This document shows positions 14,850 through 28,802 of a DNA stretch of 36,285 bases, in pieces. The stretch lies in assembly GCF_006363815.1 (NCBI RefSeq), contig NZ_RRYT01000027.1, forward strand, positions 29,454 to 65,738, given 5' to 3'. The DNA comes from Thermomonospora catenispora (GTDB taxonomy: Bacteria; Actinomycetota; Actinomycetes; Streptosporangiales; Streptosporangiaceae). Both the position numbers and the translations under genes were made by a program. Numbering within the stretch: the first letter of the stretch is position 1; each line of letters begins with the position of its first letter. Under the pieces are notes generated by a model. It was not told the origin of the DNA, did no database searches, and was given only the letters and a program-made list of their open reading frames with translations.

Positions 14850-17054
14850 TCACTTGCCGGGCTCGGGGTCCCGGGGGAGGCCGAGCAGACGTTCGCCGAT
14901 GATGTTGAGCTGCACCTCGGTGGTGCCGCCGTAGATCGTCATCGCGCGGCTGAACAGCATGGCCCGGGCCATGATGCCGCTGCGGGTCGCCGGCGTCTCG
15001 GTGGCGGCGGCCGCCCCCTGCGCGGCCCAGCAGTAGTCGGCCACGTCCTGGTTGAACTGCACGCCCAGCAGCTTGCGGACGCTGGCCTCGGCGCCGGGCT
15101 CCACGCCGTTGAGCTGCTTGAGGGTGCTGCGCAGCGCCAGCAGGTCGATGGCCTGGCCCTGGGCGATCAGGGCGCCGACCTCGGCGGCGGTCACCGGGTC
15201 CAGCTCGGCGCCCTCGAAGAACTTCAGCAGCTCGGGCACGCCCATGCCCAGGCCGCCGCCGGTCGACAGCGACACCCGCTCGTTGCTGAGGGTGTTGCGG
15301 GCGACCTTCCACCCCTCGTTGACCTTGCCGACCACGCAGTCGTCGGGGACGAACACCCCGTCGAGGAAGACCTCGTTGAACAGCGCGTCGCCGGTCATCT
15401 CCCGCAGCGGGCGCACGTCCACGCCCTCGGACTTCATGTCGACCAGGAAGTAGGTGATGCCCTCGTGCTTGGGAGCGTCGGGGTCGGTGCGGGCGATGCA
15501 GAAGCCCCACTGGGCCATGTGCGCGACCGAGGTCCAGATCTTCTGGCCGGTCAGCCGCCAGCCGCCCTCGACCTTCTCGGCCTTCATCGACAGCGAGGCC
15601 AGGTCGGAGCCGGCGCCGGGCTCGCTGAACAGCTGGCACCAGATCATCTCGCCGCGCAGGGTGGGCCGCAGGAAGCGCTCTTTCTGCTCCTCGGTGCCGT
15701 AGGCGACCAGGGACGGCACCAGCCAGGTGCCGATCATCAGGTTCGGCGGCTTGATCCCGGCGGCCTTGAGCTCCTGCTGGATGAGGATCTGCTCGACCGG
15801 TCCGGCGCCGCGGCCCCACGGCTCGGGCAGGTGCGGGGCGGTCCAGCCCTCATCGCCCATCGTGCGGTGCAGGGCCTCCTTGTCGTCCTTGAGCGGGGCC
15901 AGCCGCTCGGCGATCTCGGCGCGGATCCGCTCGCGCAGCGGCTGGGTGTCGTCGTCCAGCTCCAGTTCGATCGGCCGGCGGTGCCCGGCCAGGCCGAGCT
16001 CGGCGACGGCGGCCGCGTAGTCCTTGGCGGGGCCCAGCAGCGCCCGCAGGCTCAGCACGCGGCGCAGGTAGATGTGGGCGTCGTGCTCCCAGGTGAAGCC
16101 GATGCCGCCGAGGATCTGGATGCAGTCGCGGGCGATCTGCGCGCACGACTCGGGGGCGACGGCGCCGGCGACCGCGATGGCGAACTCGGTCTCGGGGGCG
16201 GGCTCCTCGTCGAGGGCGCGAGCGGCGTCCCACACCGCGGCGCGGGCCTTCTCCAGGGCGATCAGCATCCGGGCGGCCTTGTGCTTGACGCCCTGGAACT
16301 GCCCGATCGGCCGGCCGAACTGCTCGCGGACCTTGGCGTACTCCGCGGCGGTGGTCACGCACCAGGAGGCGGCGCCGACGCTCTCGGCGCCCAGCAGCAC
16401 GGTGGCCAGCTCGCGAACCCGCTCGGTGCGCAGCCCGGTGAGCACCCGGTCGGCGGCCACGGTCACCTCGGCGGCCTCGACCTTGGCGACCCGGCGCACC
16501 TTGTCCAGGCTCTCCAGCGGGGTCACGGTCACCTCGGCGGCGTCCACCGCGACCCACTGCCGGCCGCCGTCCACCTCCACCGGCAGCACCAGCACATCGG
16601 CCAGGCCGGCGCCCAGCACCGGCTCGGCGGCGCCGGAGACCACCAGACGGTCGCCCTCCCGGCGGCCGGTCAGCCCGCCGGCCAGCGCCAGCGCGCCGGT
16701 GCGGGAGCCGTCGGCCAGTCCGGGCAGCAGCTCGCTCTTGGCCTTGTCGTTGTCGCTCGCGTCGATCGCGGCGCTGGCGAGCACGGTCGGCAGGAACGGC
16801 CCGGGGGCGGCGGCACGGCCGAGCTCCTCCAGCGCCACGGCCAGCTCGGGCGTGCCGTAGCCCTGCCCGCCGTGCTCCTCGGCCAGGTGCAGGCCCAGCA
16901 GACCCTGCTCGGCGAGCGCGGACCAGAACTGCGGTTCGGTCTCGGTGTCGGCGTCCAGCGCGGCGCGGACCACCTGGGGGGAGATGTGGCGCTCGGCGAA
17001 CCCGCGCACCGACTCGGCAAGCGCCTCGTGCTCTTCGGTCAGCCCGATGGCCAT
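14850..17054 (-). CDS. Tandem-domain acyl-CoA dehydrogenase (FadE34/FadE6 type)
   Basis: 734 residues, twice the length of a normal acyl-CoA dehydrogenase, with two dehydrogenase units (about 1-355 and 365-734). The first half keeps REQFGRPIGQFQ (243-254), which contacts FAD across subunits, and the ILGGIGFTWEHDAHIYLRR helix (314-332), but has lost the SEPGAGSD signature. The second half keeps SEPGAGSDLASL (477-488), LTGQKIWTS and YGGTTEVQ, but not the RxQFGRPIG motif. One composite FAD site per chain is therefore likely, like the alpha/beta heterotetramers and fused FadE34-type enzymes of steroid side-chain oxidation. At the position of the MCAD-type base (YEGT) the C-terminal half has YGGT, so the base lies elsewhere. 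AAGGTGA precedes the ATG. Substrate is unproven; a bulky or branched acyl-CoA is likely. Confidence 0.9.
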   Translation of the reverse strand: MAIGLTEEHEALAESVRGFAERHISPQVVRAALDADTETEPQFWSALAEQGLLGLHLAEEHGGQGYGTPELAVALEELGRAAAPGPFLPTVLASAAIDASDNDKAKSELLPGLADGSRTGALALAGGLTGRREGDRLVVSGAAEPVLGAGLADVLVLPVEVDGGRQWVAVDAAEVTVTPLESLDKVRRVAKVEAAEVTVAADRVLTGLRTERVRELATVLLGAESVGAASWCVTTAAEYAKVREQFGRPIGQFQGVKHKAARMLIALEKARAAVWDAARALDEEPAPETEFAIAVAGAVAPESCAQIARDCIQILGGIGFTWEHDAHIYLRRVLSLRALLGPAKDYAAAVAELGLAGHRRPIELELDDDTQPLRERIRAEIAERLAPLKDDKEALHRTMGDEGWTAPHLPEPWGRGAGPVEQILIQQELKAAGIKPPNLMIGTWLVPSLVAYGTEEQKERFLRPTLRGEMIWCQLFSEPGAGSDLASLSMKAEKVEGGWRLTGQKIWTSVAHMAQWGFCIARTDPDAPKHEGITYFLVDMKSEGVDVRPLREMTGDALFNEVFLDGVFVPDDCVVGKVNEGWKVARNTLSNERVSLSTGGGLGMGVPELLKFFEGAELDPVTAAEVGALIAQGQAIDLLALRSTLKQLNGVEPGAEASVRKLLGVQFNQDVADYCWAAQGAAAATETPATRSGIMARAMLFSRAMTIYGGTTEVQLNIIGERLLGLPRDPEPGK

Positions 17055-17243: not shown

Positions 17244-18392
17244 TCACGCGGACCGCCCGATCACCTCTCCATAGAGATCGGCCAGTTCCTCCACCGCCTC
17301 CTCCTCGGTGGGCAGCGCGACGGCCCGCTGCGCGGCCGCGGCGCCGAGCCGCACCGCCAACGCCGGGTCGTCCAGGATCCGGGCGACCGCGCGTTCCAGG
17401 GCGGCGGCGTCCCCGGGCGGGACCAGCAGCCCCGCCTCGGCGTCCCCGTCCTCCCCGGCGCCCAGCAGCGCCGGGATCCCGCCGACCCGGGTGGCCACCA
17501 GGGGCCGCCCGGCGCGCAGGATCTCCTGGACGATCAGCGGCTGCCCCTCCCACACGCTGGGCACCACGGCGACGTCGGCGGCGGCCAGCACCTCCGGCAC
17601 GTCCGAACGGCGGCCCAGCAGCCGGACCGGCAGCCCCTCGGCGTCGATCCGGGCGCGCAGCTCCCCTTCCAGGGGACCGTCCCCGACGACGGCCACCAGC
17701 GGCGGCGGGGTGCGGCGCGCCCAGCCCGCGGCGGCGTCCAGCAGGGTCGGCAGTCCCTTCTGCGCCGCCAGCCGGCCCACGGTGACCAGCAACGGCCGGT
17801 CCTCCACGCCCAGCTCGGCGCGGATCGCCTCCCGCTCCGCCAGCCCGGGCGCCGGGCCCGCGGGGGCGGGCGCCGGCACCAGCGCGCGTCCCACCCGACG
17901 CGCCCCGAGCTCGCGCATCCGCTCCTCCAGGTCGGGCGAGACCCCGAGGACGTGGTCGGCGCACCCGGCGACGATCCGCTCCAGCGTCCGGTACGCCATC
18001 CCGATCGCCCCGCCCGTGATCAGCGCGTTGTGCAGGGTCACCACGACCGGGACCCGGCCGCGGCCGGCCCGGGACCCGCCCGGCGCGATGCGGGCGCACG
18101 CCAGCGCCGCCAGCGCCCCCGCTCGCAGCCCGTGCGCATGGACCACGTCCGCGCCGGCCAACAACCGCCGCAGCCGCATCACCGCACGAGCGTCCGACGG
18201 CGGACGGGGCCGGTCGGCGATCGCCACCGCCGCGAACCGCGCCCCCGCCGCGGCGAATCCGAACATCTCCTCGGTCTCGGCCGGTCCGCACACCACGACG
18301 CGCGCACCGCGCCTCGCCAGCCCGGCGGCCACCGAACGGACGTGCCGGCCCACTCCCCCGGTGCTGCTCCCCAGCACCAGCGCGACCTTCAT
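17244..18392 (-). CDS. GT4-family glycosyltransferase
   Basis: 382-residue GT-B-fold enzyme transferring a sugar from a nucleotide donor. The N-terminal glycine-rich loop is SSTGGVGRHV. The donor domain has VGRLAAQKGLPTLLDA and VVGDGPLEGEL, and the EX7E-type motif runs from the E of WEGQPLIVQE to the second E, followed by LRAGRPLVATRVGGIPALL. No membrane segment, so it would act on the inner membrane face. ATG 18392 gives the canonical MKVALVLGSS start and lies four bases after the MurJ-like stop; a GTG 18 bases earlier would overlap that gene. GAGGG lies upstream. Being last in the SteA-SteB-PNPT-MurJ series, it may extend a lipid-linked saccharide (inference). Donor and acceptor are unknown. 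Confidence 0.9.
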   Translation of the reverse strand: MKVALVLGSSTGGVGRHVRSVAAGLARRGARVVVCGPAETEEMFGFAAAGARFAAVAIADRPRPPSDARAVMRLRRLLAGADVVHAHGLRAGALAALACARIAPGGSRAGRGRVPVVVTLHNALITGGAIGMAYRTLERIVAGCADHVLGVSPDLEERMRELGARRVGRALVPAPAPAGPAPGLAEREAIRAELGVEDRPLLVTVGRLAAQKGLPTLLDAAAGWARRTPPPLVAVVGDGPLEGELRARIDAEGLPVRLLGRRSDVPEVLAAADVAVVPSVWEGQPLIVQEILRAGRPLVATRVGGIPALLGAGEDGDAEAGLLVPPGDAAALERAVARILDDPALAVRLGAAAAQRAVALPTEEEAVEELADLYGEVIGRSA

Positions 18393-18396
18393 CCCG

Positions 18397-20085
18397 TCAA
18401 GTTCCCTCACGAGCGACCTTTCGGCTGAGGACGGCGCGCAGATCGCGGCCGTCGATCACGAACGCGACCGCCAGGAACACCGCACCGGCCGCCGCCGCGG
18501 CCCCCGCGGCCGTGACCATGTCGCCGACCCGACCGCCCGGGCCGAGGGCCGCGGCGAGGCCGTATCCGGCCCCGCCGCCCAGCGCCGCCCCGCCGAGCGC
18601 CGCCGCGATCGCGCGGCCGGCCCCGGCCAGCGCCCTCCGCCCTCGGGCGTGCAGCACCGCGACCGTCAGCAGCGCGCCCGCCACCGTCATCCCGACGGTG
18701 TTGCCGATCCCGAACGCCGCCACCACCCACTCCGGCGGCACCGCCGCCACCAGAGCCACGTCGACGACCAGCACCGTCAGCCACCCGGTGACCGTCGCCG
18801 CGGCCGAGGCCCGGTTCCGCCCGCAGGCCAGCAGCACCCGCCCCAGGTGCGCCACCAGACCGTAGCCGATCAGTCCGGGGGCGAACGCCAGGACGCCGCG
18901 TGCCAGCACCTGCGGATGCGTGCCCGGCGCGCTGTCCAGGAAATGCGCGGCGGGGACCGCGATCGCCGCCAGTCCCGCCGTTCCGGCCCCCGACACCAGC
19001 AGCACCGCCCGCGTGGTGGAGGCGGTGACGGCGTCGAACGCCTCCCGGTCGCCCACCCGCGCCGACAGCACGGGGAACGCGCTGGTGGCGATCGGCACCG
19101 CCAGGATCGCCCACGGCAGCAGATACACCGCCCAGGCGTAGCCGTAGTCGGCCAGCGCCCCGGGCGTGCCCCGCCAGCTCAGCACGATCACCGCGAGGGT
19201 GGCGACCTGCTGGGCGGCGACCGTCGACAGACCCGCCGCGGCCAGCGACCGCACCCGGGCGGCCACCCCGTCGGGGAAGCGCAGCGTCGGCCGCAGCCGC
19301 AGCCGCAACGGCCACGCCGCCGCCACGGCGGTGCCGACCAGCGCCGCCACCCCCAGCGTGGTGCCCACCGACAGGATCAGCTCGGCGGTCCGCGGCAGCC
19401 CCGCCAGATCGCCGCGGTGGTCGGCGCCCCACGGCACGAACAGCAGGTACGCGCCCATCACCACGATGCTCGACACCAGCGGCGCCAGCGCCGGGCCGGT
19501 GAACCGCCGGTGCGCCTGCAGCACCCCGTACAGCACGACGGCCAGCCCGTACAGCACCACCTGCGGGGCGAACACCACCAGCATGTCGGCGCCGACCGCG
19601 ATCGCGTCGCGCACCGAGCAGCCCTGGGCGTCGCCGGGCACCAGCAGCGCCATCAGCGGTCTGGCGGCCAGCGCCATCGCCGCCGACAGCGGCAGCAGCG
19701 CCAGCACCACCCAGGTCAGCATCGCCGAGGCGGTGCGGTGAACGTGCTCGCGCTCGCCGCGTTCGACCGGCCCGGCCAGCACCGGGACCACCATCCCGGC
19801 CAGCGCCCCGCCCGCCACGATCTCGAACACGATCGTGGGGAGCATGTTGGCGGCGTTGTAGACCTGCCCCACGCACTGGGCCGTGACGGTCTGCGAGAAC
19901 ACCAGCGTCCGGCCGAACCCCGCCAGCCGGGACAGCACCGTCAGCGCGCCGATGAGGACCGCCGCGCCCGCCAGCCCGCCGGTGAGCCGCCGCACCGGGC
20001 CTTTCCCGCCGGCGCCCGCACGCCGCCCCGACGCCGACGGGTCGGGGCGGCCCCCGCCCGTCCGGGACCGGAACGCCAGGCCCAC
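18397..20085 (-). CDS. MurJ/MviN-family lipid-linked saccharide flippase
   Basis: 562-residue polytopic membrane protein of the MOP superfamily with about 14 hydrophobic segments after a Gly/Arg/Pro-rich cytoplasmic tail of 33 residues. GALTVLSRLAGFGRTLVFSQT in the first segment carries the conserved SRxxGxxR core of MurJ (SRLAGFGR). LYGLAVVLYGVLQAHRRFTGPALAP is the typical segment 5-6 region. The MurJ family moves lipid II or related undecaprenyl-linked precursors outward. The start is GTG, which shares its first G with the TAG of the preceding gene (TAGTG). I think this is a paralogue rather than the main MurJ, because it lacks the long C-terminal kinase-like domain of mycobacterial MurJ and sits with a GT4 enzyme and a PNPT-like protein; that is inference. 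Confidence 0.88.
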   Translation of the reverse strand: MGLAFRSRTGGGRPDPSASGRRAGAGGKGPVRRLTGGLAGAAVLIGALTVLSRLAGFGRTLVFSQTVTAQCVGQVYNAANMLPTIVFEIVAGGALAGMVVPVLAGPVERGEREHVHRTASAMLTWVVLALLPLSAAMALAARPLMALLVPGDAQGCSVRDAIAVGADMLVVFAPQVVLYGLAVVLYGVLQAHRRFTGPALAPLVSSIVVMGAYLLFVPWGADHRGDLAGLPRTAELILSVGTTLGVAALVGTAVAAAWPLRLRLRPTLRFPDGVAARVRSLAAAGLSTVAAQQVATLAVIVLSWRGTPGALADYGYAWAVYLLPWAILAVPIATSAFPVLSARVGDREAFDAVTASTTRAVLLVSGAGTAGLAAIAVPAAHFLDSAPGTHPQVLARGVLAFAPGLIGYGLVAHLGRVLLACGRNRASAAATVTGWLTVLVVDVALVAAVPPEWVVAAFGIGNTVGMTVAGALLTVAVLHARGRRALAGAGRAIAAALGGAALGGGAGYGLAAALGPGGRVGDMVTAAGAAAAAGAVFLAVAFVIDGRDLRAVLSRKVAREGT

Positions 20086-20981
20086 TACGCGGACTCGGCG
20101 ACCTCGTCGGTCGCCGGTCGTTGGGGGCGCGGCGCGGCCGGCGGGCGGCGCCCCAGCATGTCCAGCCGGTTCAGCACCGGGTTGCCCGCGATGACCTTGG
20201 TGAAGCTGACGAACTCGCTGGCGACGTTCAGCCCGACCAGGCCGGCCAGCACCGCCAGCCGGGGGCCGCGCGGCAGCCGGCTGGCGGCCAGTCCCAGCAG
20301 CGCGCCGAGCGCGTTGGCGCCCGCGTCCCCGAGCATCGCCCGCTCGCCCAGGTCCTCGGGCAACAGCGCGACCGCGGCCCCCAGCGGCGCGGCGACCACC
20401 GCGGCCTGGGCGGGGCCGGCGGCCGCCAGCGGCGCCCCGGCCAGCAGGCCGACCTTGATCGCCCGTCCGGGCCGCAGGTCGAACAGGTTCGCCAGGTTGG
20501 CGGCGGTCGCCACCACCGCCCCGCCGGTCACCGCGTCGAAGACCCGGCCCGCCGCGGTCGGCGCCGACGATCCGGCGATCGCGGCGGCGGCCAGCCCGGT
20601 CGCCCCGATGCCGAGGATCTTGACCGCGCCGCTGGTGACCTCTCCGCGCGCCAGCGCCCCCAGATGCCCCTTGAAGCCGCGGGAGGACGCCGAGCCCGCC
20701 AGGTCGTCGTAGGCGCCGAGCACCCCGGCGCCCGTCCCGGCCAGCAGGGCGGCGGCCCGCAGCCGGCCGGGCAGTCCGGGGACCGCCAGCCCCCCGACCG
20801 CCGCGCCGGCCACGAACGCCGGCCCCTCCAGCAGGGTGACCGGCTCGCCCCGATGGTTGGTGCGGCCCCAGACCTCTGCTCCGTCGCGCCCGCCCACGCC
20901 GGGCGGGCGGCGGGTCAGCGCGAGGTAGGCGATGCGGGCGGCGGCGGCGCCCAGCAGGCCGCCGGTGATCAAGGCTTTCAT
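20085..20981 (-). CDS. PNPT-like membrane protein (divergent MraY/WecA superfamily)
   Basis: 298-residue protein with about eight to ten hydrophobic segments. Three motifs line up, in order, with the polyprenyl-phosphate N-acetylhexosamine-1-phosphate transferase superfamily: D92-D93 in GAYDDLAG followed by RGFKGHLGALARGEVTSG; N162-x-x-N165-x-x-D168 in ANLANLFDLRPG, where MraY/TagO have NxxNxxDGxDG; and LGDAGANALGALLG (217-230), matching the MGDxGSxxLG loop. TNHRGEPVTLLEGP corresponds to the early P-x-x-GG loop. The C-terminal histidine cluster (HHH or HIHH) is missing; only two histidines are present. It may therefore be a transferase with altered chemistry or a non-catalytic relative. Start ATG overlaps the SteB stop (ATGA); its TAG shares a base with the MurJ-like GTG. 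Confidence 0.75.
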   Translation of the reverse strand: MKALITGGLLGAAAARIAYLALTRRPPGVGGRDGAEVWGRTNHRGEPVTLLEGPAFVAGAAVGGLAVPGLPGRLRAAALLAGTGAGVLGAYDDLAGSASSRGFKGHLGALARGEVTSGAVKILGIGATGLAAAAIAGSSAPTAAGRVFDAVTGGAVVATAANLANLFDLRPGRAIKVGLLAGAPLAAAGPAQAAVVAAPLGAAVALLPEDLGERAMLGDAGANALGALLGLAASRLPRGPRLAVLAGLVGLNVASEFVSFTKVIAGNPVLNRLDMLGRRPPAAPRPQRPATDEVAESA

Positions 20982-21940
20982 TCGTCGTCTCCCGATGCCG
21001 GGCCGAGGGCGGGCAGATAGGCGCGGGCGTCCTCGCCGATGCCGTAGTGCCCGACCTTGCCGGCGAGCTGCTCCTCCAGCGCCAGCACGGTGACGATCCG
21101 GCCGGAGGACTGGTCGATGGTGTCGACGGAGGACACCCGCTCGCCGATGTCGGACTCGCGCAGCGCCGCGATCAGCCCGCCGTCGTCGACCGCGGTGATC
21201 GGGCCGGCCAGCACGCCGCCGCGTCCGGCCGCGTCCAGCGCGCGCGCCAGGGACAGCAGCGCCCGGTTGTCGGTGTCCGCCCCGTCCTGCTGGTAGGGGG
21301 AGGAGGGCGCGACCATGACGGCGAGCGTCGCGTGCTGGGTGGGCCGTCCGCTGACGGTCACGAAACCCGCCGACTTGAACGCCTCCAACGTCGCCTTGCT
21401 GGAGGCGTCGTCGCGCAGCGCCTTGGACGGATCGTCGGTCAGCAGCGCGGCGGCCAGCACCTGGGCCGCCTTGTCGTACGGGCCGGCGCCCCTGGGGAAG
21501 GTCATGTCGGCGGGGCGCAGCTGCTCGGCCAGCTGGTCGAGAGTGGCGGCCTGGTCGTCGTCGAGGAATTTCTTCTGCACGGTGACCCGTCCGGTGACGG
21601 TCGCCCCGGCGACCTTCTCGCCGAGCAGCTCGGCGATCTTGTTGAGGCTCTCGGAGCCGGCGCCGGGGGTCTCCACCAGCACCACCGACTGGTTCTTCAG
21701 CCGCCCGGCCAGCACGTGCGGGCCGACCGCGGCGGCGAACCGCTCCTCGCCCTCCACCTGGGTGAGCAGTTGACGCTGCCGGGCGCGCAGCTCCTCGTTG
21801 CGTTTGCCGGTGGCGGCGACCTCCTTCTTCAGGGTGCCCAGCAGCGGATCGGACAGCGCGGTGGCGCCCAGCACGAGCCCGACCGCCAGCGACAGGAAGA
21901 TCGCGACGATGGAGACGAGGTGATAACGGAAGTCGATCAC
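20978..21940 (-). CDS. steB: SteB / MctB-family envelope protein
   Basis: 320-residue homologue of mycobacterial Rv1698 (MctB) and corynebacterial SteB. It begins VIDFRYHLVSIVAIFLSLAVGLVLGA: a short N-terminus, then one membrane helix and the characteristic FRYHLVS motif. A coiled-coil-like stretch (about 33-65, rich in Glu/Lys/Arg/Gln) and an extracytoplasmic alpha/beta domain follow. SteB interacts with SteA in actinobacteria and helps control cell-wall hydrolysis and daughter-cell separation; the older name comes from a copper-resistance phenotype. The start is GTG, overlapping the SteA TGA by four bases (GTGA). Its own stop overlaps the next start. No porin-like features are visible, so I favour the SteB role. 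Confidence 0.9.
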   Translation of the reverse strand: MIDFRYHLVSIVAIFLSLAVGLVLGATALSDPLLGTLKKEVAATGKRNEELRARQRQLLTQVEGEERFAAAVGPHVLAGRLKNQSVVLVETPGAGSESLNKIAELLGEKVAGATVTGRVTVQKKFLDDDQAATLDQLAEQLRPADMTFPRGAGPYDKAAQVLAAALLTDDPSKALRDDASSKATLEAFKSAGFVTVSGRPTQHATLAVMVAPSSPYQQDGADTDNRALLSLARALDAAGRGGVLAGPITAVDDGGLIAALRESDIGERVSSVDTIDQSSGRIVTVLALEEQLAGKVGHYGIGEDARAYLPALGPASGDDE

Positions 21941-23172
21941 GTGAACAGTCCGGTCAGCCAGAAGAGGAAGGCGTGCCAGCGCTCGGCCAACAGGGGCCAG
22001 ATCACTTCCCCGATCGGCGAGACCAGCACCGCGACGGTCATGGCGATGAACGCGCCGAACACCAGCAGCAGCAGCGACCAGCCGGAGATCCGGCTGCGGT
22101 ACAGCCGGGACACGCCCTTGGCGTCGACCAGCTTGCTGCCCACCCGCAGCCGCGTCAGGAACGTGCTGGACATCCCGGCCCGGCCCTTGTCGAGGAACTC
22201 GACCATGTTGGCGTGCGTGCCGACCGCGACGATGAGGCTGGCGCCCTTGTCGTCGGCCAGCAGCATCGCGATGTCCTCGCTGGTGGCGGTGGCGGGGAAC
22301 ACCACCGCGTCCAGCCCGAGGTCCTTGACCCGCTTCAGGCCGGGCGCGCGGCCGTCCCGGTAGGCGTGCACCACCAGCTCGGCCCCGCAGGTCAGCGCCT
22401 CGTCGGAGACCGAGTCCATGTCCCCGACGATCATGTCGGGCTTGTACCCGGCCTCCAGCAGCGCGTCCGCCCCGCCGTCCACTCCGATCAGCACCGGCCG
22501 GTACTCGCGGATGTAGGGGCGCAGCGTGGCGATGTCCTCGCGGTAGTGATAGCCGCGCACCACGATCAGCGCGTGCCGCCCTTCCAGGGAAGTGGCCACG
22601 TCCGGGACGCCGACCCCGTCGATGAGCAGGTCGCGCTCGCGCCGCATGTACTCCAGGGTGTTGGCGACGAACGCCTCGAGCTGGTTGGCCAGCCCCGCCT
22701 TGGCGGCGGCCAGCGACTCGGAGACGGTCTCGGCGGTCTGCTCGGTGCCCTTGGCGATGACCTCGTCGCCGCGGTAGACCACGCCCTCGTGCACCCGGAC
22801 CTGATCGCCCTCGGCGAGCCGGGTGAAGATCTCCGGCCCCACGTCGTCGACCAGCGGGATCCCGGCCTCCAGCAGGATCTGCGGACCCAGGTTGGGGTAA
22901 CGGCCGGAGATGCTGGGGGCGGCGTTGACCACCGCTCCGACCTTGCAGGACACCAGGGCCTCGGCGCTGACCCGGTCCAGGTCCACATGGTCGATCACGG
23001 CGATCTCGCCGGGCTGCAGCCGCTTGGTGAGCTTCTTGGTGCGGCGGTCCAACCGGACCTCGGCCCGTACCCCCGGCCGGTCGTCGTCCTTGGCCAGGCC
23101 GAGCACGCGCCGCGAGAGCCGTCGATGGACGGCACGGGCGCGCCGGACGGCGAGCGAAGGCCTTTCGTTCAT
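21937..23172 (-). CDS. steA: SteA cytokinetic-ring protein
   Basis: 411 residues. A basic N-terminus precedes a central region (TKRLQPGEIAVIDHVDLDRVSAEALVSCKVGAVVNAAPSISG is split by its conserved glycines, about 50-95). Next comes a domain related to thiamine pyrophosphokinase: VLIGVDGGADALLEAGYKPDMIVGDMDSVSDE (about 225-258), where GDMDSVSD mirrors the kinase's GDxDS motif. A single membrane helix near the C-terminus (LLLLVFGAFIAMTVAVLVS) and a short tail end the protein. In Corynebacterium and Mycobacterium SteA pairs with SteB at the septum. ATG 23172 directly follows a GTG at 23175, so either could start it. Its stop overlaps the SteB start. RecN lies upstream, separated by a 9-bp hairpin. 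Confidence 0.92.
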   Translation of the reverse strand: MNERPSLAVRRARAVHRRLSRRVLGLAKDDDRPGVRAEVRLDRRTKKLTKRLQPGEIAVIDHVDLDRVSAEALVSCKVGAVVNAAPSISGRYPNLGPQILLEAGIPLVDDVGPEIFTRLAEGDQVRVHEGVVYRGDEVIAKGTEQTAETVSESLAAAKAGLANQLEAFVANTLEYMRRERDLLIDGVGVPDVATSLEGRHALIVVRGYHYREDIATLRPYIREYRPVLIGVDGGADALLEAGYKPDMIVGDMDSVSDEALTCGAELVVHAYRDGRAPGLKRVKDLGLDAVVFPATATSEDIAMLLADDKGASLIVAVGTHANMVEFLDKGRAGMSSTFLTRLRVGSKLVDAKGVSRLYRSRISGWSLLLLVFGAFIAMTVAVLVSPIGEVIWPLLAERWHAFLFWLTGLFT

Positions 23173-23216
23173 CACCTGTCATCCTGCCAGAGCACGGGAG
23201 GGTACCGAGTGAAAGA

Positions 23217-23240
23217 CGAACGGACGCGCGTGTCCGTTCG
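23217..23240 (-). terminator. Hairpin between recN and steA
   Basis: Perfect 9-bp inverted repeat CGAACGGAC / GTCCGTTCG with a 6-nt loop; outer arms ACCGAGTG and CACGCTCGGT (23204-23252) can extend it with one bulge. It lies between the recN stop and the steA start, so it probably ends or attenuates the recN transcript. The steA promoter would lie in the 45 bp after it; I see only a weak TACCCT -10. Confidence 0.5.
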
Positions 23241-23274: not shown

Positions 23275-25005
23275 TCAGCCGGCGCCGCGCCGGTCCCGGG
23301 CGGCCAGTTCCAGCAGCTCCTCGGCGTGGGCGCGGCCCAGCTCCGAATCCTCCAGCCCGGCCAGCATCCGCGACAGCTCCCGCACCCTGGCCTCGCCCTC
23401 CAGGACGGTGACGCCGCTGCGGGTGACCGACCCGTCGTCGGACTTGGCCACCAGCAGGTGCCGGTCGGCGAACGCGGCGACCTGCGGCAGATGGGTGACC
23501 ACGATCACCTGGGCGTTGCGGGCCAGCCGGGCCAGCCGGCGGCCGATCTCCACCGCCGCCTTGCCGCCCACGCCCGCGTCGACCTCGTCGAACACGAACG
23601 TCGGGACCGGGTCGGCGCCGGCGAACACCACCTCGATGGCCAGCATCACCCGCGACAGCTCGCCGCCGGAGGCGCCCTTGTGCAGCGGCAGCGGCGGCGC
23701 GCCCGGATGCGCCGCCAGCCGCAGCTCCACCTCGTCGGCCCCGTGCGGCCCGAACTCCTCGGTGGGGGTGACGTCCACCACGATCCGGGCGTGCGGCATC
23801 GCCAGCGCGGTCAGCTCCTCGGTGACCGCCGCCGCGAACCGCTCGGCGGCACGGGTGCGGATCTCGGTGAGCTCGGCGGCCAGTCCCCGCAGCCGCTCGG
23901 TCAGCTCGGCGTGCTCGGCGCGCAGCTCCTCGATGCGCACATCGTCGCCCTCCAGCTCGGCCAGCCGCGCCGCCGACCGCCGCGCCCAGGCGAGCACCTC
24001 GTCGATGTCCTCGCCGTACTTGCGGGTCAGCCCGGCCAGTTCGGCGCGGCGCTCCTGCACGGCGGCCAGCCGCACCGGGTCGGCCTCCACCGACTCGGCG
24101 TAGGAGGCCAGCTCGGTGGCCGCGTCGGAGATGAGATAGCCGGCCTCGGCGAGCCGGTCGGCGAGCCGGCCGAGGGTCTCATCGTGGTCGCGCACGCCCT
24201 CCAGCGCGGCCCGCGCCGTGCCCAGCAGGCTCATCACGTCGGCGGGGGTCACCGCGGGGGCGTCGGGGTCGCCCAGCAGCGCCTGGTGCGCGGTGGTGGC
24301 GGCGGTGCGCAGCGCGTCGGCGTGCCCCAGCCGCTCGGCCTCGGCGGCCAGCTCCGCGTCCTCGCCCGGCTTGGGGTCGACCTTCTCGATCTCCTCCAGG
24401 CCGAACCGGAGCATGTCGGCCTCCTGGGCGCGCTCGCGGGCCCGGGTGGTCAGCTCCTCCAGCAACGCCGTCACCTGGCGGTGCCGCTGGTAGGCGGCGG
24501 TGTAGGCGCGCAGCGGCCCGGTCAGGGCCTCCCCGGCGTACCGGTCGAGGGCGGCGCGCTGGCGGGCGGGCTGCAGCAGCCGCTGCTGATCGGACTGTCC
24601 GTGCACGGCCACCAGGTCGTCGGCCAGCGTCAGCAGCGTGCTGACCGGCACCGACCGGCCGCCCAGATGGGCCCGGGAGCGGCCCTCGGCGGAGACCGAC
24701 CGGGAGATGATCAGGGTGTCCTCGTCCAACTCGGCGCCGGCCTCGGCGACCCGGGCGGCCACCCGCCCCCGCGGGTCGACCACGATCCGGCCCTCGACGG
24801 TGGCGCGGGCCGCGCCCGGCCGCACCCGCTGCGGGTCGGCGCGCCCCCCGAACAGCAGCCCGAGGCTGGTCACCACCATGGTCTTGCCGGCACCGGTCTC
24901 GCCGGTGACCACGTTGAACCCCGGGGACAGGTCCAGGACCGCCTCGTCGATCACGCCCAGGCCCTGGATCCGTACCTCCTCGACCATCGGCCGCACGAGC
25001 GTCAC
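23275..25005 (-). CDS. recN: DNA repair protein RecN
   Basis: 576-residue SMC-like ATPase for double-strand-break repair. The N-terminal head has VEEVRIQGLGVIDEAVLDLSPGFNVVTGETGAGKT with Walker A at 35-42. A central coiled-coil portion rich in Ala/Glu/Arg follows (about 160-370). The C-terminal head carries the signature SGGELSRVMLAIEVVF and Walker B PTFVFDEVDAGVGG. Length is normal. The GTG at 25005 is chosen because AAGGGG lies seven bases upstream; the ATG six codons later has no such site. NAD kinase ends 28 bp upstream, giving the usual tlyA-nadK-recN order. No LexA box is seen directly in front of it, so any damage control would act from further upstream. Confidence 0.96.
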   Translation of the reverse strand: MTLVRPMVEEVRIQGLGVIDEAVLDLSPGFNVVTGETGAGKTMVVTSLGLLFGGRADPQRVRPGAARATVEGRIVVDPRGRVAARVAEAGAELDEDTLIISRSVSAEGRSRAHLGGRSVPVSTLLTLADDLVAVHGQSDQQRLLQPARQRAALDRYAGEALTGPLRAYTAAYQRHRQVTALLEELTTRARERAQEADMLRFGLEEIEKVDPKPGEDAELAAEAERLGHADALRTAATTAHQALLGDPDAPAVTPADVMSLLGTARAALEGVRDHDETLGRLADRLAEAGYLISDAATELASYAESVEADPVRLAAVQERRAELAGLTRKYGEDIDEVLAWARRSAARLAELEGDDVRIEELRAEHAELTERLRGLAAELTEIRTRAAERFAAAVTEELTALAMPHARIVVDVTPTEEFGPHGADEVELRLAAHPGAPPLPLHKGASGGELSRVMLAIEVVFAGADPVPTFVFDEVDAGVGGKAAVEIGRRLARLARNAQVIVVTHLPQVAAFADRHLLVAKSDDGSVTRSGVTVLEGEARVRELSRMLAGLEDSELGRAHAEELLELAARDRRGAG

Positions 25006-25033: not shown

Positions 25034-25960
25034 TTATCCCCCTGCGGGCCGACCGGCGTCGTCCGCGCCGGGCCGGGCCCGGCCCCGCCAACCGGTCACC
25101 GGGAGACCGAACTTGGTCACCAACCGATCGGTGAACGGGGTCCGATGCAGTCTGGCCAGTTTGACCGGGATCGCACCGCGACGCACCTCCACCCGGGCGC
25201 CGGGAGGCAGGCCCACCGTCCTCCTCCCATCGCACCACAGGACCGCCCGAGGGGTGTCCGGCAGCACCTCGATCGCCACCACCGACCGCGGGGAGACCGC
25301 CAGGGGGCGGGCGAACAGGGCGTGCGCGCTGATCGGCACCACCAGCATCGCCTCGACCTCCGGCCACACCACCGGGCCGCCGGCGGAGAACGCGTACGCG
25401 GTCGAGCCGGTGGGGGTGGCGCACACCACGCCGTCGCAGCCCCAGTGCGACAGGGGGCGGCCGTCGATCTCCACGACCACCTCCAGCATCCGCTCGCGCT
25501 CGGCCTTCTCCACGGTGGCCTCGTTGAGCGCCCAGGTGGTGGCGGCGATCTCCCCGTCGCGTCGGACGACCACGTCGATGGTCATGCGCTCCTCGACGTG
25601 GTAGCGGCGCTCGACGACCCGGTCGACGGTGGAGGTCAGGTCGTCGCGCTCGGCCTCGGCGAGGAAGCCGACGTGACCGAGGTTGACGCCGAGCATCGGG
25701 GTGCCGGACAGGCGGGCCAGATCGGCGGCGCGCAGGATGGTGCCGTCGCCGCCGAGCACCATCACCAGCTCGGCGTCCTCGGCGGCGGCCGCGGAGGCGG
25801 GCACCACCTGCACCCCCGAGCAGTGCAGATCCGGCGCCTCCTCGTCGAGGACCCGCACCTCGATGCCGGCCCTGCTCAGCCGTTCGACCACCAGCGCGGC
25901 GCTGCGGACCGCCTCCGGCCGTCCGGTGTGCGCCACCACCAGCACCGATCGGCCGCTCAC
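25034..25960 (-). CDS. nadK: NAD kinase
   Basis: 308-residue kinase that phosphorylates NAD to NADP with ATP or polyphosphate. The catalytic GGDGT loop is at 70-74, NEATV at 146-150, and the nucleotide-binding segment GCDGVVCATPTGSTAYAFSAGGP at about 174-196. GVNLGHVGFLAE is also typical. The start is GTG with GAAGGG nine bases upstream. The C-terminal tail after about residue 285 is Arg/Gly/Pro-rich and not conserved. It lies between tlyA (69 bp upstream) and recN (28 bp downstream), the conserved actinobacterial order. Confidence 0.96.
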   Translation of the reverse strand: MSGRSVLVVAHTGRPEAVRSAALVVERLSRAGIEVRVLDEEAPDLHCSGVQVVPASAAAAEDAELVMVLGGDGTILRAADLARLSGTPMLGVNLGHVGFLAEAERDDLTSTVDRVVERRYHVEERMTIDVVVRRDGEIAATTWALNEATVEKAERERMLEVVVEIDGRPLSHWGCDGVVCATPTGSTAYAFSAGGPVVWPEVEAMLVVPISAHALFARPLAVSPRSVVAIEVLPDTPRAVLWCDGRRTVGLPPGARVEVRRGAIPVKLARLHRTPFTDRLVTKFGLPVTGWRGRARPGADDAGRPAGG

Positions 25961-26029: not shown

Positions 26030-26836
<807 letters not shown>

Positions 26837-26861
26837 CGCGCCGCCTCCCGGCCTCCCGTCG

Positions 26862-27263
26862 TCATGCCCCGCTCCGGTGGGCGTGCCCCGGACGCGGCGG
26901 GACGATGCCGGGCCCCGGCGGCCTGGGCACGGGCGTCTGCTGATCGACCGAGGCCAGGACGTCCTGCAGGCCGCGGTGGACCTCCTCGAAGATCTCCACA
27001 TGGTCGCCCACCGGCAGCCCGGCCAGCTCGACCAGCCGGCCGAGGGCGGCGTCGACCCGCTCGTCGCCGGTCGGCTCCGGCGGCGGCACCGCGCCCAGCG
27101 CCGCCACCACCGCGCCCGCCGGCACGGTCCGCGGCTCCTGCGGGGCCGCCGGGGCCGGTGCGTTCTCCGGGGCCCGGGGGGCCGGCGCGGGCCGCCAGGT
27201 CCCGTCCTCGGCCACGTCGAGGGCCGCCGTGCCGGGCGCGCCCGCCGGGGGTTCGCCGGACAT
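26862..27263 (-). CDS. Small conserved hypothetical protein upstream of tlyA
   Basis: 133 residues with no recognised domain. The N-terminal 65 residues are Pro/Ala-rich and probably disordered. A short helical core follows (DERVDAALGRLVELAGLPVGDHVEIFEEVHRGLQDVLASVD is the conserved-looking part, roughly 70-110), then a Pro-rich tail. Small proteins with this core occur next to tlyA in actinomycetes (compare the position of Rv1693). The ATG is preceded by AGAGGAGG, a strong ribosome binding site, which supports expression. It is divergent from the SCP2 gene with 87 bp between them and begins the tlyA-nadK-recN run. Function unknown. Confidence 0.8.
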   Translation of the reverse strand: MSGEPPAGAPGTAALDVAEDGTWRPAPAPRAPENAPAPAAPQEPRTVPAGAVVAALGAVPPPEPTGDERVDAALGRLVELAGLPVGDHVEIFEEVHRGLQDVLASVDQQTPVPRPPGPGIVPPRPGHAHRSGA

Positions 27264-27350
27264 GTGCCTCCTCTGCGTCGCATCCACGTCGGGATGAACG
27301 CTACCGTCCTGAAGCGACATCCCGGCGACTGATGGGGGGACGGCCTGACC

Positions 27351-27692
27351 ATGGCGAACGAGGAGGAGTGCCGGGCGGCGCTGGAGCTGATCCGCACCCG
27401 GCTGAGCGCCGTCGATCCCGAGCTCTTCACCCGCCACGTGGTGGAACGCACGATCACCTGCCGTGTCCCGGACCTGGGGGTGGTCTGGCGGTCCCGGATC
27501 CACGCGGGCGGCCTGGACCCGTTCGAGATCACCGCCGATCCCGGCGACGGGCAGGTGCGGGTGACGGTGGGCAGCGACGATCTGGTGGCGCTGGCCAAGG
27601 AGGAGCTGCACGCCGGCCGGGCGTGGGCGACCGGCCGGCTCAAGATCGAGGCGAGCCTCCGGGACCTGCTGCGGCTGCGCACGCTGTTGTAG
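27351..27692 (+). CDS. SCP2 sterol-binding-domain protein
   Basis: 113-residue stand-alone SCP-2-like lipid-binding domain. Features include RTITCRVPDLGVVWRSRIHAGGLDPFEI, the beta-sheet part, and VRVTVGSDDLVALAKEELHAGRAWATGRLKIEASLRDLLRLRTLL, the helical end with the typical G(R/K)LKIEGs-type segment (GRLKIEAS). It would bind a hydrophobic ligand such as a fatty acyl or isoprenoid group; the ligand is unknown. It is the only plus-strand gene inside this block, which interrupts the otherwise leftward order TPR-HAD-tlyA. GGGGGGACGG lies upstream of the ATG. It converges with the HAD gene; a small CGGCC/GGCCG stem follows its stop. Confidence 0.85.
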   Translation: MANEEECRAALELIRTRLSAVDPELFTRHVVERTITCRVPDLGVVWRSRIHAGGLDPFEITADPGDGQVRVTVGSDDLVALAKEELHAGRAWATGRLKIEASLRDLLRLRTLL

Positions 27693-27797
27693 CCGCCGGC
27701 CCGACCGGCCGCGGGCGTCATGGCCGCACGGGCCGCACGCCGCCGGGGGTTCGCCGAGCCGGCCGGCGACGACGCCGTTCCCCGCGCACGCCGCCCG

Positions 27798-28802
27798 TCA
27801 GGGGAGGTCGAGCCGCTCCAGCGCGTCGGCGACGGCCTCGGCGGCGACGGGGGCTTCGGTGCGCCAGGCCGCGCCGCACAGGGCGCGCAGCCCGTCCCAC
27901 GGGTCGCCCTCGCCGATCAGCTCGATCTTCGCGCCCGCCCAGCGCGCGGTCCAGCCGCCGCAGCGGTGGCCGTCGTCGTCCGCGCGCACCGCAGGATGCG
28001 GAACGAGCAGCCCGCCCAGGTCGGCCGCCAGATAGGTGGGGCGGTGCCGGGGGCCGGCGGTCAGCACGGTCAGCGGGTCGGTGACGCCGGTGAACACCAG
28101 CATGCTGTCGGCGCCGCCGTTGTGCGCGCCCTCGATGTCGGTGTCCAGCCGGTCCCCCACGATGAGGGGGTTGCGGGCGCCGGTCCTGATGATCGACTCC
28201 TGATGCAGGGGGCGCCGGGGCTTGCCGGTGACGATCGGGTCCACCCCGGTCGCCGCCTTGATCACCTGCATGAGCGAGCCGTTGCCGGGCTGGGGCGGGC
28301 CGTCCCCGCCGGGAATGGTCAGGTCGCCGTTGGAGGCGACGAACAGCGCCCCCTGCAGCACCGCCTGGGCGCCCTGGGCGATGAGCCCGTACGACAGGTG
28401 GGGGTCATAGCCCTGGACGACGGCGGCGGGGCGTTCGGCGGCGGTGGACACCGGCACCAGCCCGTGGGCGTACAGCGCGTGCCGCAGCCCCGTCCCGCCG
28501 ACGACCAGCACCTTGGACCCGGCGGGCAGCCGTTCGGCCAGCAGCCGCGCCGCCGCCTGGGCGCTGGTGACCACGTCGCCGGCGTCGGCGGGCACCCCCA
28601 TGCCGGTGAGCAGCGCCGCCACCGCGCCGGGCGTCCGGGAGGCGTTGTTGGTGACGAACGCCAGGCGCTGCCCGGCGGCGCGCGCCTTGGCCAGCGCCTC
28701 CGGCGCCCCCGGCACGGGGCGGTGCCCCACGTACACCACGCCGTCGAGATCGAGCAGCGCCACGTCATAGGCCTCGCTCAGCGGGCGGTCGCATCCGCGC
28801 AC
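27798..28802 (-). CDS. HAD-superfamily phosphatase (NagD/class IIA type)
   Basis: 334 residues. HAD motif I is LLDLDGVVYVG with D18 and D20, motif II FVTNNASRTP, the lysine of motif III is in IVTGKPRRPL, and motif IV is IVGDRLDTDIEGAHNGG. The cap between motifs II and III is of class IIA, as in NagD and 4-nitrophenylphosphatase. The C-terminal 60 residues after the fold (HRCGGWTARWAGAKIELIGE onward) are an extension of unknown use. The GTG start has AGAAGGGG nine bases upstream. It lies between the 160-residue TPR gene and the tlyA run, the same place as Rv1692, a glycerol-phosphate phosphatase in Mycobacterium; glycerol 3-phosphate is thus a reasonable substrate guess. Confidence 0.93.
   Translation of the reverse strand: MRGCDRPLSEAYDVALLDLDGVVYVGHRPVPGAPEALAKARAAGQRLAFVTNNASRTPGAVAALLTGMGVPADAGDVVTSAQAAARLLAERLPAGSKVLVVGGTGLRHALYAHGLVPVSTAAERPAAVVQGYDPHLSYGLIAQGAQAVLQGALFVASNGDLTIPGGDGPPQPGNGSLMQVIKAATGVDPIVTGKPRRPLHQESIIRTGARNPLIVGDRLDTDIEGAHNGGADSMLVFTGVTDPLTVLTAGPRHRPTYLAADLGGLLVPHPAVRADDDGHRCGGWTARWAGAKIELIGEGDPWDGLRALCGAAWRTEAPVAAEAVADALERLDLP

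Follow-up and report, generated by a model that had tools for sequence, protein, structure and literature searches.

What does a gene run that joins two septal proteins to the apparent machinery of a lipid-linked glycan tell us about the function of these proteins? The question is raised by a 36,285-nucleotide stretch of the Thermomonospora catenispora genome (referred to as the window; part of contig G000:C29 of a 5.35-Mb draft genome), where open reading frames and profile searches identify a minus-strand run of five genes, i.e., steA, steB, a gene for a protein related to polyprenyl-phosphate sugar-1-phosphate transferases (PNPT), a gene for a flippase-like, second MurJ-family protein (MurJ2) and a gene for a GT4 glycosyltransferase. 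An initial annotation of the window read these genes as a fully coupled unit, possibly encoding a septum-directed glycan or lipid II-variant system. The results outlined below suggest that SteA and the PNPT pathway are probably functionally tied in some way, because such a tie best explains adjacency, co-occurrence and a two-way decay of conserved residues when these are taken together.

SteA is found at the septum in Corynebacterium (C.) glutamicum and in mycobacteria, and linkage of steA and steB is reported in a passage of PMC6705760. According to excerpts of PMC12977500, SteA forms dimers, and its conserved pocket resembles the nucleotide site of thiamine pyrophosphokinase (TPK) and is predicted to bind carbohydrate; the C. 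glutamicum protein (CgSteA) is stabilized by GDP or UDP, the Mycobacterium (M.) tuberculosis protein (MtSteA) gave no clear result, and the ligand is described as an open question, a cell-wall intermediate being suspected. The same excerpts place SteAB throughout Actinobacteria and in some Clostridia, there downstream of spo0A; the gene-order figure covers three Mycobacteriales, and the words flippase and glycosyltransferase are absent from the main text. The mycobacterial SteA (also named TapA) works via MtrAB and can act in cell separation without SteB, as stated in part of PMC12338722. Open-access titles and opening parts of abstracts, together with passages of the SteAB papers (for PMC9897464, those with neighborhood terms), mention no PNPT, MurJ or glycosyltransferase gene beside steAB.

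Conservation and composition of the gene cluster

Among relatives, PNPT is found in 30 of 41 genomes, including that of T. catenispora (the match in G022 is weak); in the other 29 the gene lies beside steB, and steA is also seen within the 1.5-kb flanks in 27. A wider set, referred to as the PNPT-anchored loci, consists of the best 80, by similarity, of at least 583 confirmed stretches. These loci contain steB in 80 cases, steA in 78, MurJ2 in 76 and GT4 in 71, and the order steA-steB-PNPT-MurJ2-GT4 recurs from Actinomadura to Kribbella and Kineosporia; the five-gene form is thus seen in PNPT-anchored loci of Actinomycetia. Locus ends explain the missing steA in L149 and L159, the missing MurJ2 in L135, L164 and L173, and the missing GT4 in L131, L135, L146, L164, L173 and L176, while true absences are those of MurJ2 in L139 and of GT4 in L185, L187 and L188.

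The cluster was also approached from SteA, which scores over the cut-off in 90 of 198 genomes sampled across the phylum. Eighty SteA-anchored regions (the window's own genome and nine others excluded) contain PNPT in 66 cases, and of the 65 regions with at least 9.5 kb downstream, 64 contain steB, 58 PNPT, 20 MurJ2 and 22 GT4. Five of the seven without PNPT belong to one family code (f6), and the other two (L087, L088) have PNPT further along the same contig. For genome-wide counts, PNPT was called at 126 bits or more, with one partial match at 100; the next matches, at most 50 bits, lie along the PNPT superfamily, and G096, with a 36-bit fragment at the end of a contig, was scored as lacking PNPT. 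By this measure, both SteA and PNPT are carried by 81 of the 198 phylum genomes, SteA alone by 9 (5 of f6; in 4 the distance from steA to a contig end is at most 4.5 kb), PNPT alone by 3 and neither by 105. In 197 genomes of the window's class, the corresponding numbers are 73, 39, 8 and 77; all 69 SteA-PNPT pairs on the same contig lie within 2.6 kb on one strand, and four pairs are split across contigs. Fisher tests give p values of 6e-41 (phylum) and 3e-16 (class), which ignore relatedness.

Random adjacency is rejected by this co-occurrence, the same-strand proximity and the recurrent gene order. The unit is conserved rather than a chance neighborhood, i.e., the non-conserved adjacency in relatives that was to speak against the proposed system is not what the survey finds.

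The composition of the cluster varies, and the idea of a five-gene set with constant co-occurrence and order holds only for its steA-steB-PNPT core, as MurJ2 and GT4 are often replaced (by GT2). In the 66 PNPT-bearing phylum loci, considered over the fetched regions and with profiles built from these same loci (the identity of GT2 was taken from PF00535 in one representative), PNPT is accompanied by GT2 alone (35), by MurJ2, GT4 and a membrane protein that we call APTM (12), by GT2, GT4 and APTM (7), by MurJ2 and GT4 (3), by GT2, MurJ2 and APTM (3), by GT2 and APTM (1), by MurJ2 alone (1) or by none of these (4). GT2 or GT4 is present in 61 of the 66, GT4 in 22 and MurJ2 in 19. What stays constant is the trio SteA, SteB and PNPT, joined in nearly all cases by a glycosyltransferase.

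APTM is a large protein (about 740-780 aa) encoded near PNPT in 23 of the 66 loci, e.g., at L043:4967-7255 on the minus strand. The one representative that was scanned matches no Pfam family at E ≤ 0.01; by eye, its N-terminal part resembles an alkaline phosphatase.

Spacing varies as well, so that the term "fully coupled" applies to the T. catenispora genome and not as a general rule. In the PNPT-anchored loci, a 4-bp steA/steB overlap is found in 68 of 78 scored junctions, and of 79 steB/PNPT junctions 46 have 0-30 nt between the genes and 16 overlap by 4 bp, by a scoring that took the start codon closest to the upstream stop and is biased towards overlaps.

Nor is the five-gene unit obligate, because the SteA and PNPT halves separate. 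The 39 class genomes with SteA only belong to f6 (14), f79 (11), f11 (7) and others (7), and in many PNPT-less SteA loci steB runs directly into pyrG. Seven of the eight class genomes with PNPT only share the genus code g36, out of a g36 total that is not fully listed for that sample; in the phylum sample, seven g36 genomes include none with SteA and two with PNPT. The labels used below, mycobacteria-like for f6 and Streptomyces-like for g36, are putative, assigned from gene order and SteA sequence.

Paired residue losses and the case for a functional tie

Adjacency alone proves little, because unrelated neighbors are similarly conserved: in the 80 SteA regions nadK (69) and recN (64), which have no evident relation to the pathway, are about as conserved as PNPT (66). 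The claim of a functional tie is for this reason carried by the residue-decay evidence.

On the SteA side, the motif GDxDS, part of the TPK-like nucleotide pocket, is present in 142 of 142 PNPT-linked loci and in 2 of 34 loci without PNPT (32 of the 39 class genomes with SteA only, and G011 and G026). Residue D233, in a second pocket motif, is kept in 142 of 142 vs 18 of 34. The same comparison gives 142/142 vs 5/34 for K47, 6/34 for H270, 5/34 for S299 and 1/34 for G354, and 141/142 vs 4/34 for K330; these five stood out among the 87 positions that PNPT-linked SteAs conserve and were chosen post hoc. The SteAs of PNPT-less loci thus appear to have a damaged TPK-like pocket. Median profile scores of the neighbors hold between PNPT-linked and PNPT-less loci (recN 666 to 627, ratio 0.94; nadK 308 to 313, ratio 1.02), whereas those of SteA (554 to 436, 0.79) and SteB (258 to 188, 0.73) drop, all four profiles having been built mostly from PNPT-bearing loci.

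Fourteen loci were left out of the motif count because contig ends truncated them, or because they were split or of insufficient length. Thirteen of them have GDxDS, eight with PNPT in the locus or genome (L034, L037, L055, L071, L087, L088, L164, L173) and five (L056, L070, L089, L261, L265) whose genomes gave no PNPT and whose steA lies near a contig end; in L264 both PNPT and GDxDS are absent.

On the PNPT side, the proteins of the seven SteA-less g36 loci have H in place of N162 (7/7), have lost K176 (7/7) and show no match to D274/G277. Nine catalytic-type residues, which we selected from 22 positions invariant in a profile of 47 diverse PNPT relatives (A2), are all kept in none of these seven, compared with 144 of a set of 146 PNPTs (L033-L192, with 35 that are also A2 rows); the two exceptions are L090 (N162H) and L093, which is truncated where the fetched region stops.

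The changes were also placed on trees. On a recN tree (nine changes per trait), three supported pairs include 2.4 in the expected direction and none in the opposite (sign test, p 0.25-1). A four-gene tree with 105 rows, for which long branches and uneven composition were flagged, has six changes each for PNPT and the motif and five pairs, on average 4.4 as expected and none opposite (p 0.06-0.25), and a 168-row version has seven changes and four supported pairs, 3.5 as expected and none opposite (p 0.125-0.5). In all three trees the motif moved with PNPT or showed no difference, and never in the opposite direction. Three loci look like intermediate stages after recent PNPT loss: L212, where PNPT is a 41-residue trace and the motif is still GDFDS, and L213 (GDFGS) are both near Nocardiopsis L192, and L260 (GDLGQ) is near the PNPT-bearing Actinorugispora L158.

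Besides the conservation of nadK and recN, several points weigh against a functional tie. Once relatedness is counted, the decay is not significant by the sign test, as the pairs are too few (3-5), and PNPT-less SteA rows are clustered on the trees. The erosion of the SteA-less PNPTs is probably one event, because all seven share one genus code. Pocket aspartates are frequently retained without PNPT (D252 in 24/34, D254 in 23/34), as are 26 of the 87 conserved positions, each in at least 90% of PNPT-less SteAs. The K47, H270, S299, K330 and G354 counts carry the bias of their post hoc choice, and with the six PNPT-less left-out loci included, five of which have the motif, GDxDS without PNPT rises to 7/40. 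Finally, the seven g36 loci (L195-L201) show recN followed by PNPT-GT4 with no SteAB, and PNPT loss and SteA relaxation could both follow a change in wall chemistry without any direct contact.

Some of these points are also what an ancestral neighborhood would look like, i.e., SteAB and a wall-glycan pathway placed within a deeply conserved housekeeping block (tlyA-nadK-recN-...-pyrG-xerD), with no direct tie and with independent losses: unrelated neighbors are conserved over the same range, the SteAB and PNPT modules each persist alone in some lineages, and the small number of decay events keeps them from reaching significance once relatedness is counted. Such an arrangement does not account well for the near one-to-one co-occurrence in the phylum (81 genomes with both; 9 and 3 with one alone), nor for the loss of conserved residues on both sides when the partner is gone while recN and nadK scores hold. 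We regard it as unlikely, and a functional tie between SteA and the PNPT pathway as the better account.

Proteins and layout of the locus in T. catenispora

All coordinates and junctions of the five same-direction genes (Table 1) were confirmed by direct reading, and the gene identities first proposed are borne out by family profiles, motifs and fold. An in-frame GTG at 18410 is an alternative GT4 start that would replace the 4-nt gap by a 14-bp overlap. Profiles for pyrG, xerD, nudix, GT2, DUF3866 and APTM, built from other loci, have no match in the window, and within the window the unit stops at GT4.

Table 1. Coordinates of the five genes, conserved motifs and flanking features in the window
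Feature	Position	Strand	Remarks
steA	21937-23172	-	ATG start; alternative in-frame GTG at 23175; NF040608, 549 bits (cut-off 150)
SteA motif DGGAD	22465-22479	-	Residues 233-237; second TPK-like motif
SteA motif GDMDS	22411-22425	-	Residues 251-255 counted from GTG at 23175; TPK-like nucleotide pocket motif
steB (MctB family)	20978-21940	-	PF11382 (SteB/MctB), 315 bits (gathering 25.6); 4-bp overlap with steA (GTGA)
PNPT gene	20085-20981	-	Profile search, motifs, fold; 4-bp overlap with steB (ATGA)
PNPT D92 D93 (DD motif)	20703-20708	-	Invariant in 47 sequences; aligned with MraY DD
PNPT N162-L-A-N165-L-F-D168	20478-20498	-	N162, N165, D168 invariant (47 sequences); aligned with MraY NxxNLxD
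PNPT D219 of GDxG	20325-20327	-	Invariant (47 sequences); aligned with MraY GDxG
MurJ2	18397-20085	-	PF03023, 141 bits (gathering 27.4); 1-bp overlap with PNPT gene (TAGTG)
GT4 glycosyltransferase	17244-18392	-	ATG start; PF00534, 107 bits (gathering 26.4); TGA-4 nt-ATG after MurJ2
recN	23275-25005		Upstream of steA
nadK	25034-25960		Upstream of steA
tlyA match in frame	26033-27916		Upstream of steA
Inverted repeat	23217-23240	-	CGAACGGAC-N6-GTCCGTTCG; 9-bp arms; recN-steA gap, 45 nt 5' of steA start
Acyl-CoA dehydrogenase gene	14850-17054	-	Next gene after GT4, 189 bases downstream

Neither Pfam nor NCBIfam yields a match to the PNPT protein at E ≤ 0.001. With the threshold relaxed to E ≤ 1, PF00953 scores 16.5 bits, which is under its gathering cut-off of 27; the same family matches 31 of 47 PNPT family members at E ≤ 1 (best 3.9e-9). 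The A2 profile retrieved five PDB sequences at E ≤ 1, all of them MraY (best E 5e-7), and the motifs DD, NxxNLxD and GDxG line up in the alignments. An AlphaFold2 model built from 49 sequences (window and PNPT-anchored loci) has a pLDDT of 93.4 and a pTM of 0.90, and a Foldseek search of the PDB lists nothing but MraY and human DPAGT1 at ranks 1-28 (probability 1.00, query TM 0.47-0.61, E 7e-4 to 6e-2 with rank 1 alone below 0.001), later ranks being unrelated folds at probability ≤ 0.11. Because profile search, motifs in register and modeled fold agree, PNPT is taken as an MraY-like-fold protein with the catalytic residues, in a divergent subfamily of the polyprenyl-phosphate sugar-1-phosphate transferase superfamily. 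It shares fold and motifs with MraY, WecA and DPAGT1. It differs from these in that it has 298 aa, falls below the PF00953 cut-off, carries the subfamily signature NLxDLRPGR and has no His-rich C-terminal motif, the sole histidines of the whole protein being H43 and H106. MraY proper has such a motif for UDP-MurNAc-peptide.

MurJ2 belongs to the MurJ family, and at 138.2 bits lies below the cut-off (235.55) of the MurJ equivalog model TIGR01695; the canonical MurJ of the genome (272 bits) is encoded on another contig (G000:C54). In a tree that combines 33 hand-picked locus-linked proteins with 30 further members of PF03023, 31 of the former cluster together (SH-aLRT 94, marginally below the program's support mark). 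This group is separate from the lipid II flippase and has members in the window's class and in five family codes beyond that class; L060 and L065 do not belong to it, and the nearest named sequences to the window protein are from Actinomadura. The possibility that MurJ2 has lost its lipid II site was considered since D25, R52 and R255 of the 5t77 MurJ, which we take to be essential residues, are absent. A literature search on these three residues found no paper. The idea was dropped because canonical actinobacterial MurJs mostly lack them too (D25 in 1, R52 in 0 and R255 in 0 of 28); for this count, L243 and L215 were removed (long branches), and L060 and L065 were not counted with MurJ2. At the R18 and R24 positions of 5t77, MurJ2 has R, as canonical actinobacterial MurJs mostly do. 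The GT4 protein contains three E-x7-E spacings, of which we take the stretch EGQPLIVQE to be the family's meaningful motif. In L142 (Allosalinactinospora lopnorensis), the MurJ2 match is in three pieces and that of GT4 in two, i.e., broken genes or sequencing errors.

With these proteins at hand, the lipid II variant of the initial annotation, in which PNPT would be a second MraY, GT4 a substitute for MurG and MurJ2 the flippase, can be assessed. MraY is indeed the closest fold and profile match of PNPT, and MurJ2 is like canonical actinobacterial MurJs at the compared positions. The proposal is nevertheless very improbable given the missing His-rich motif, the two PF00953 proteins and the canonical MurJ found elsewhere in the genome, and a glycosyltransferase of GT4 or GT2 type, since the MurG family differs from both.

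SteA and SteB are members of their families by curated models, as in the SteAB-RipA system of C. glutamicum and M. tuberculosis, and the window shares the upstream tlyA-nadK-recN arrangement with mycobacteria-like loci. The downstream part differs, as PNPT, MurJ2 and GT4 follow in the window and pyrG in the mycobacteria-like loci. SteA is a TPK-fold cytosolic/membrane protein with solved homologues 9hmy and 9hmz. The window SteA has both DGGAD and GDMDS, whereas the studied proteins have GDPDQ (9hmy) and GNPTG (9hmz) at the latter position. Its C-terminal domain has the pocket motifs of TPK, as also noted in the excerpts of PMC12977500; unlike TPK it is membrane-anchored, and the match to the thiamine diphosphokinase model TIGR01378 is partial (residues 222-262, 5e-11) and below the curated cut-off. 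A distant match to the pterin pyrophosphokinase 8sd5 is also seen.

These similarities suggest another role, i.e., that SteA primarily catalyzes a step of the glycan pathway, as a diphosphokinase of TPK type or a protein that handles nucleotides, and in this way supplies PNPT, and that septal regulation in Mycobacteriales was derived after loss of the activity. The complete GDxDS and D233 in every PNPT-linked SteA fit this scenario, as do the TIGR01378 and 8sd5 matches. On the other hand, the conserved positions are spread across the whole of SteA, the scenario names neither product nor acceptor, and the motif roles are assumed by us to carry over from TPKs. It appears doubtful, and less probable than a mere ancestral neighborhood.

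Solved homologues of SteB have an N-terminal transmembrane segment and an extracytoplasmic domain. In family code f28 (e.g., L090, L099, L102, L112), the PF11382 match to SteB is broken into two parts (about 1-120 and 187-306), and the stretch between them is missing or unrecognizable, near the expected RipA-contact region (with approximate residue correspondence). SteB may drive a RipA-like hydrolase in these organisms, and the T. catenispora genome has seven NlpC/P60 matches.

As for the flanking DNA, none of 200 simple shuffles of the 107-base recN-steA gap gives a 9-bp inverted repeat and three give 8 bp. The longest repeat of this gap differs in sequence in 15 related loci, L117 alone partly matching that of the window; the repeat is possibly a recN terminator or an operator of the steA unit. 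The gene after GT4 encodes a 734-aa protein with two acyl-CoA dehydrogenase halves in a single chain.

A possible glycan pathway linked to SteAB

How might a tie between SteA and the PNPT pathway work? We infer transferase, glycosyltransferase and flippase activities from the families of the proteins and, beyond these, a ligand of SteA, a sensing step, a septal location in these organisms and a sugar. On the inner face of the membrane, PNPT would use a UDP-sugar to load polyprenyl phosphate with sugar-1-phosphate, GT4 (GT2 in many other loci) would attach a second sugar, and MurJ2, or another flippase where MurJ2 is absent, would flip the lipid-linked product outward. The TPK-like pocket of SteA, with full motifs where PNPT exists, may bind the UDP-sugar, UDP or UMP of the pathway, SteA being either a sensor or an enzyme that makes or consumes the nucleotide. 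The SteAB membrane bundle would then relay the state of SteA to the activity of SteB outside, presumably licensing septal wall cleavage. For this mechanism as stated, i.e., a small polyprenyl-linked glycan pathway joined to a SteAB switch, we consider the case evenly balanced. The glycan system coupled to SteAB that was first proposed stands in so far as the conserved unit and the two-way decay argue for a functional tie, and falls short in that the five genes are neither constant nor obligate; that the glycan is septum-directed is a fair hypothesis.

Three further observations speak against the mechanism. SteA functions in cell separation of Mycobacteriales without such a PNPT, as described in the papers on this protein. 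Binding of UDP is independent of GDxDS, because CgSteA, which lacks the motif, is stabilized by UDP. Furthermore, none of seven RipA-contact residues of MtSteB is identical in the window SteB in a low-identity alignment, where two are similar (L147 to F, K150 to R).

A broader evolutionary reading, which we put forward tentatively and as one joint claim somewhat short of an even chance, is that SteAB fundamentally belongs to a polyprenyl-linked glycan pathway of its own in Actinomycetota, as the regulatory or enzymatic arm. SteA would read, or make, the uridine nucleotide of the neighboring PNPT, and daughter-cell separation would in this way be coupled to the supply of glycan. Mycobacteriales would have kept SteAB with an eroded pocket, and Streptomyces (an identity that rests on the g36 label) PNPT-GT4 with an eroded active site; the PNPT-GT4 pair of L195-L201 is probably such a remnant.

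The locus offers a candidate for the SteA ligand, i.e., the UDP-sugar, UDP or UMP of the adjacent PNPT. Both SteAs with solved structures, the mycobacterial and the corynebacterial, are of the decayed type, without the motif that PNPT-linked SteAs keep, and the model species would no longer show the SteAB-PNPT partnership; the survey points to organisms with the full version. An MraY-like subfamily barely reached by PF00953 gains a conserved context and a testable role, and a so far undescribed lipid-linked or wall glycan would be implied in Actinomadura, Nonomuraea, Streptosporangium, Kribbella, Kineosporia, Cellulosimicrobium, Nocardiopsis and many other genomes of the phylum.

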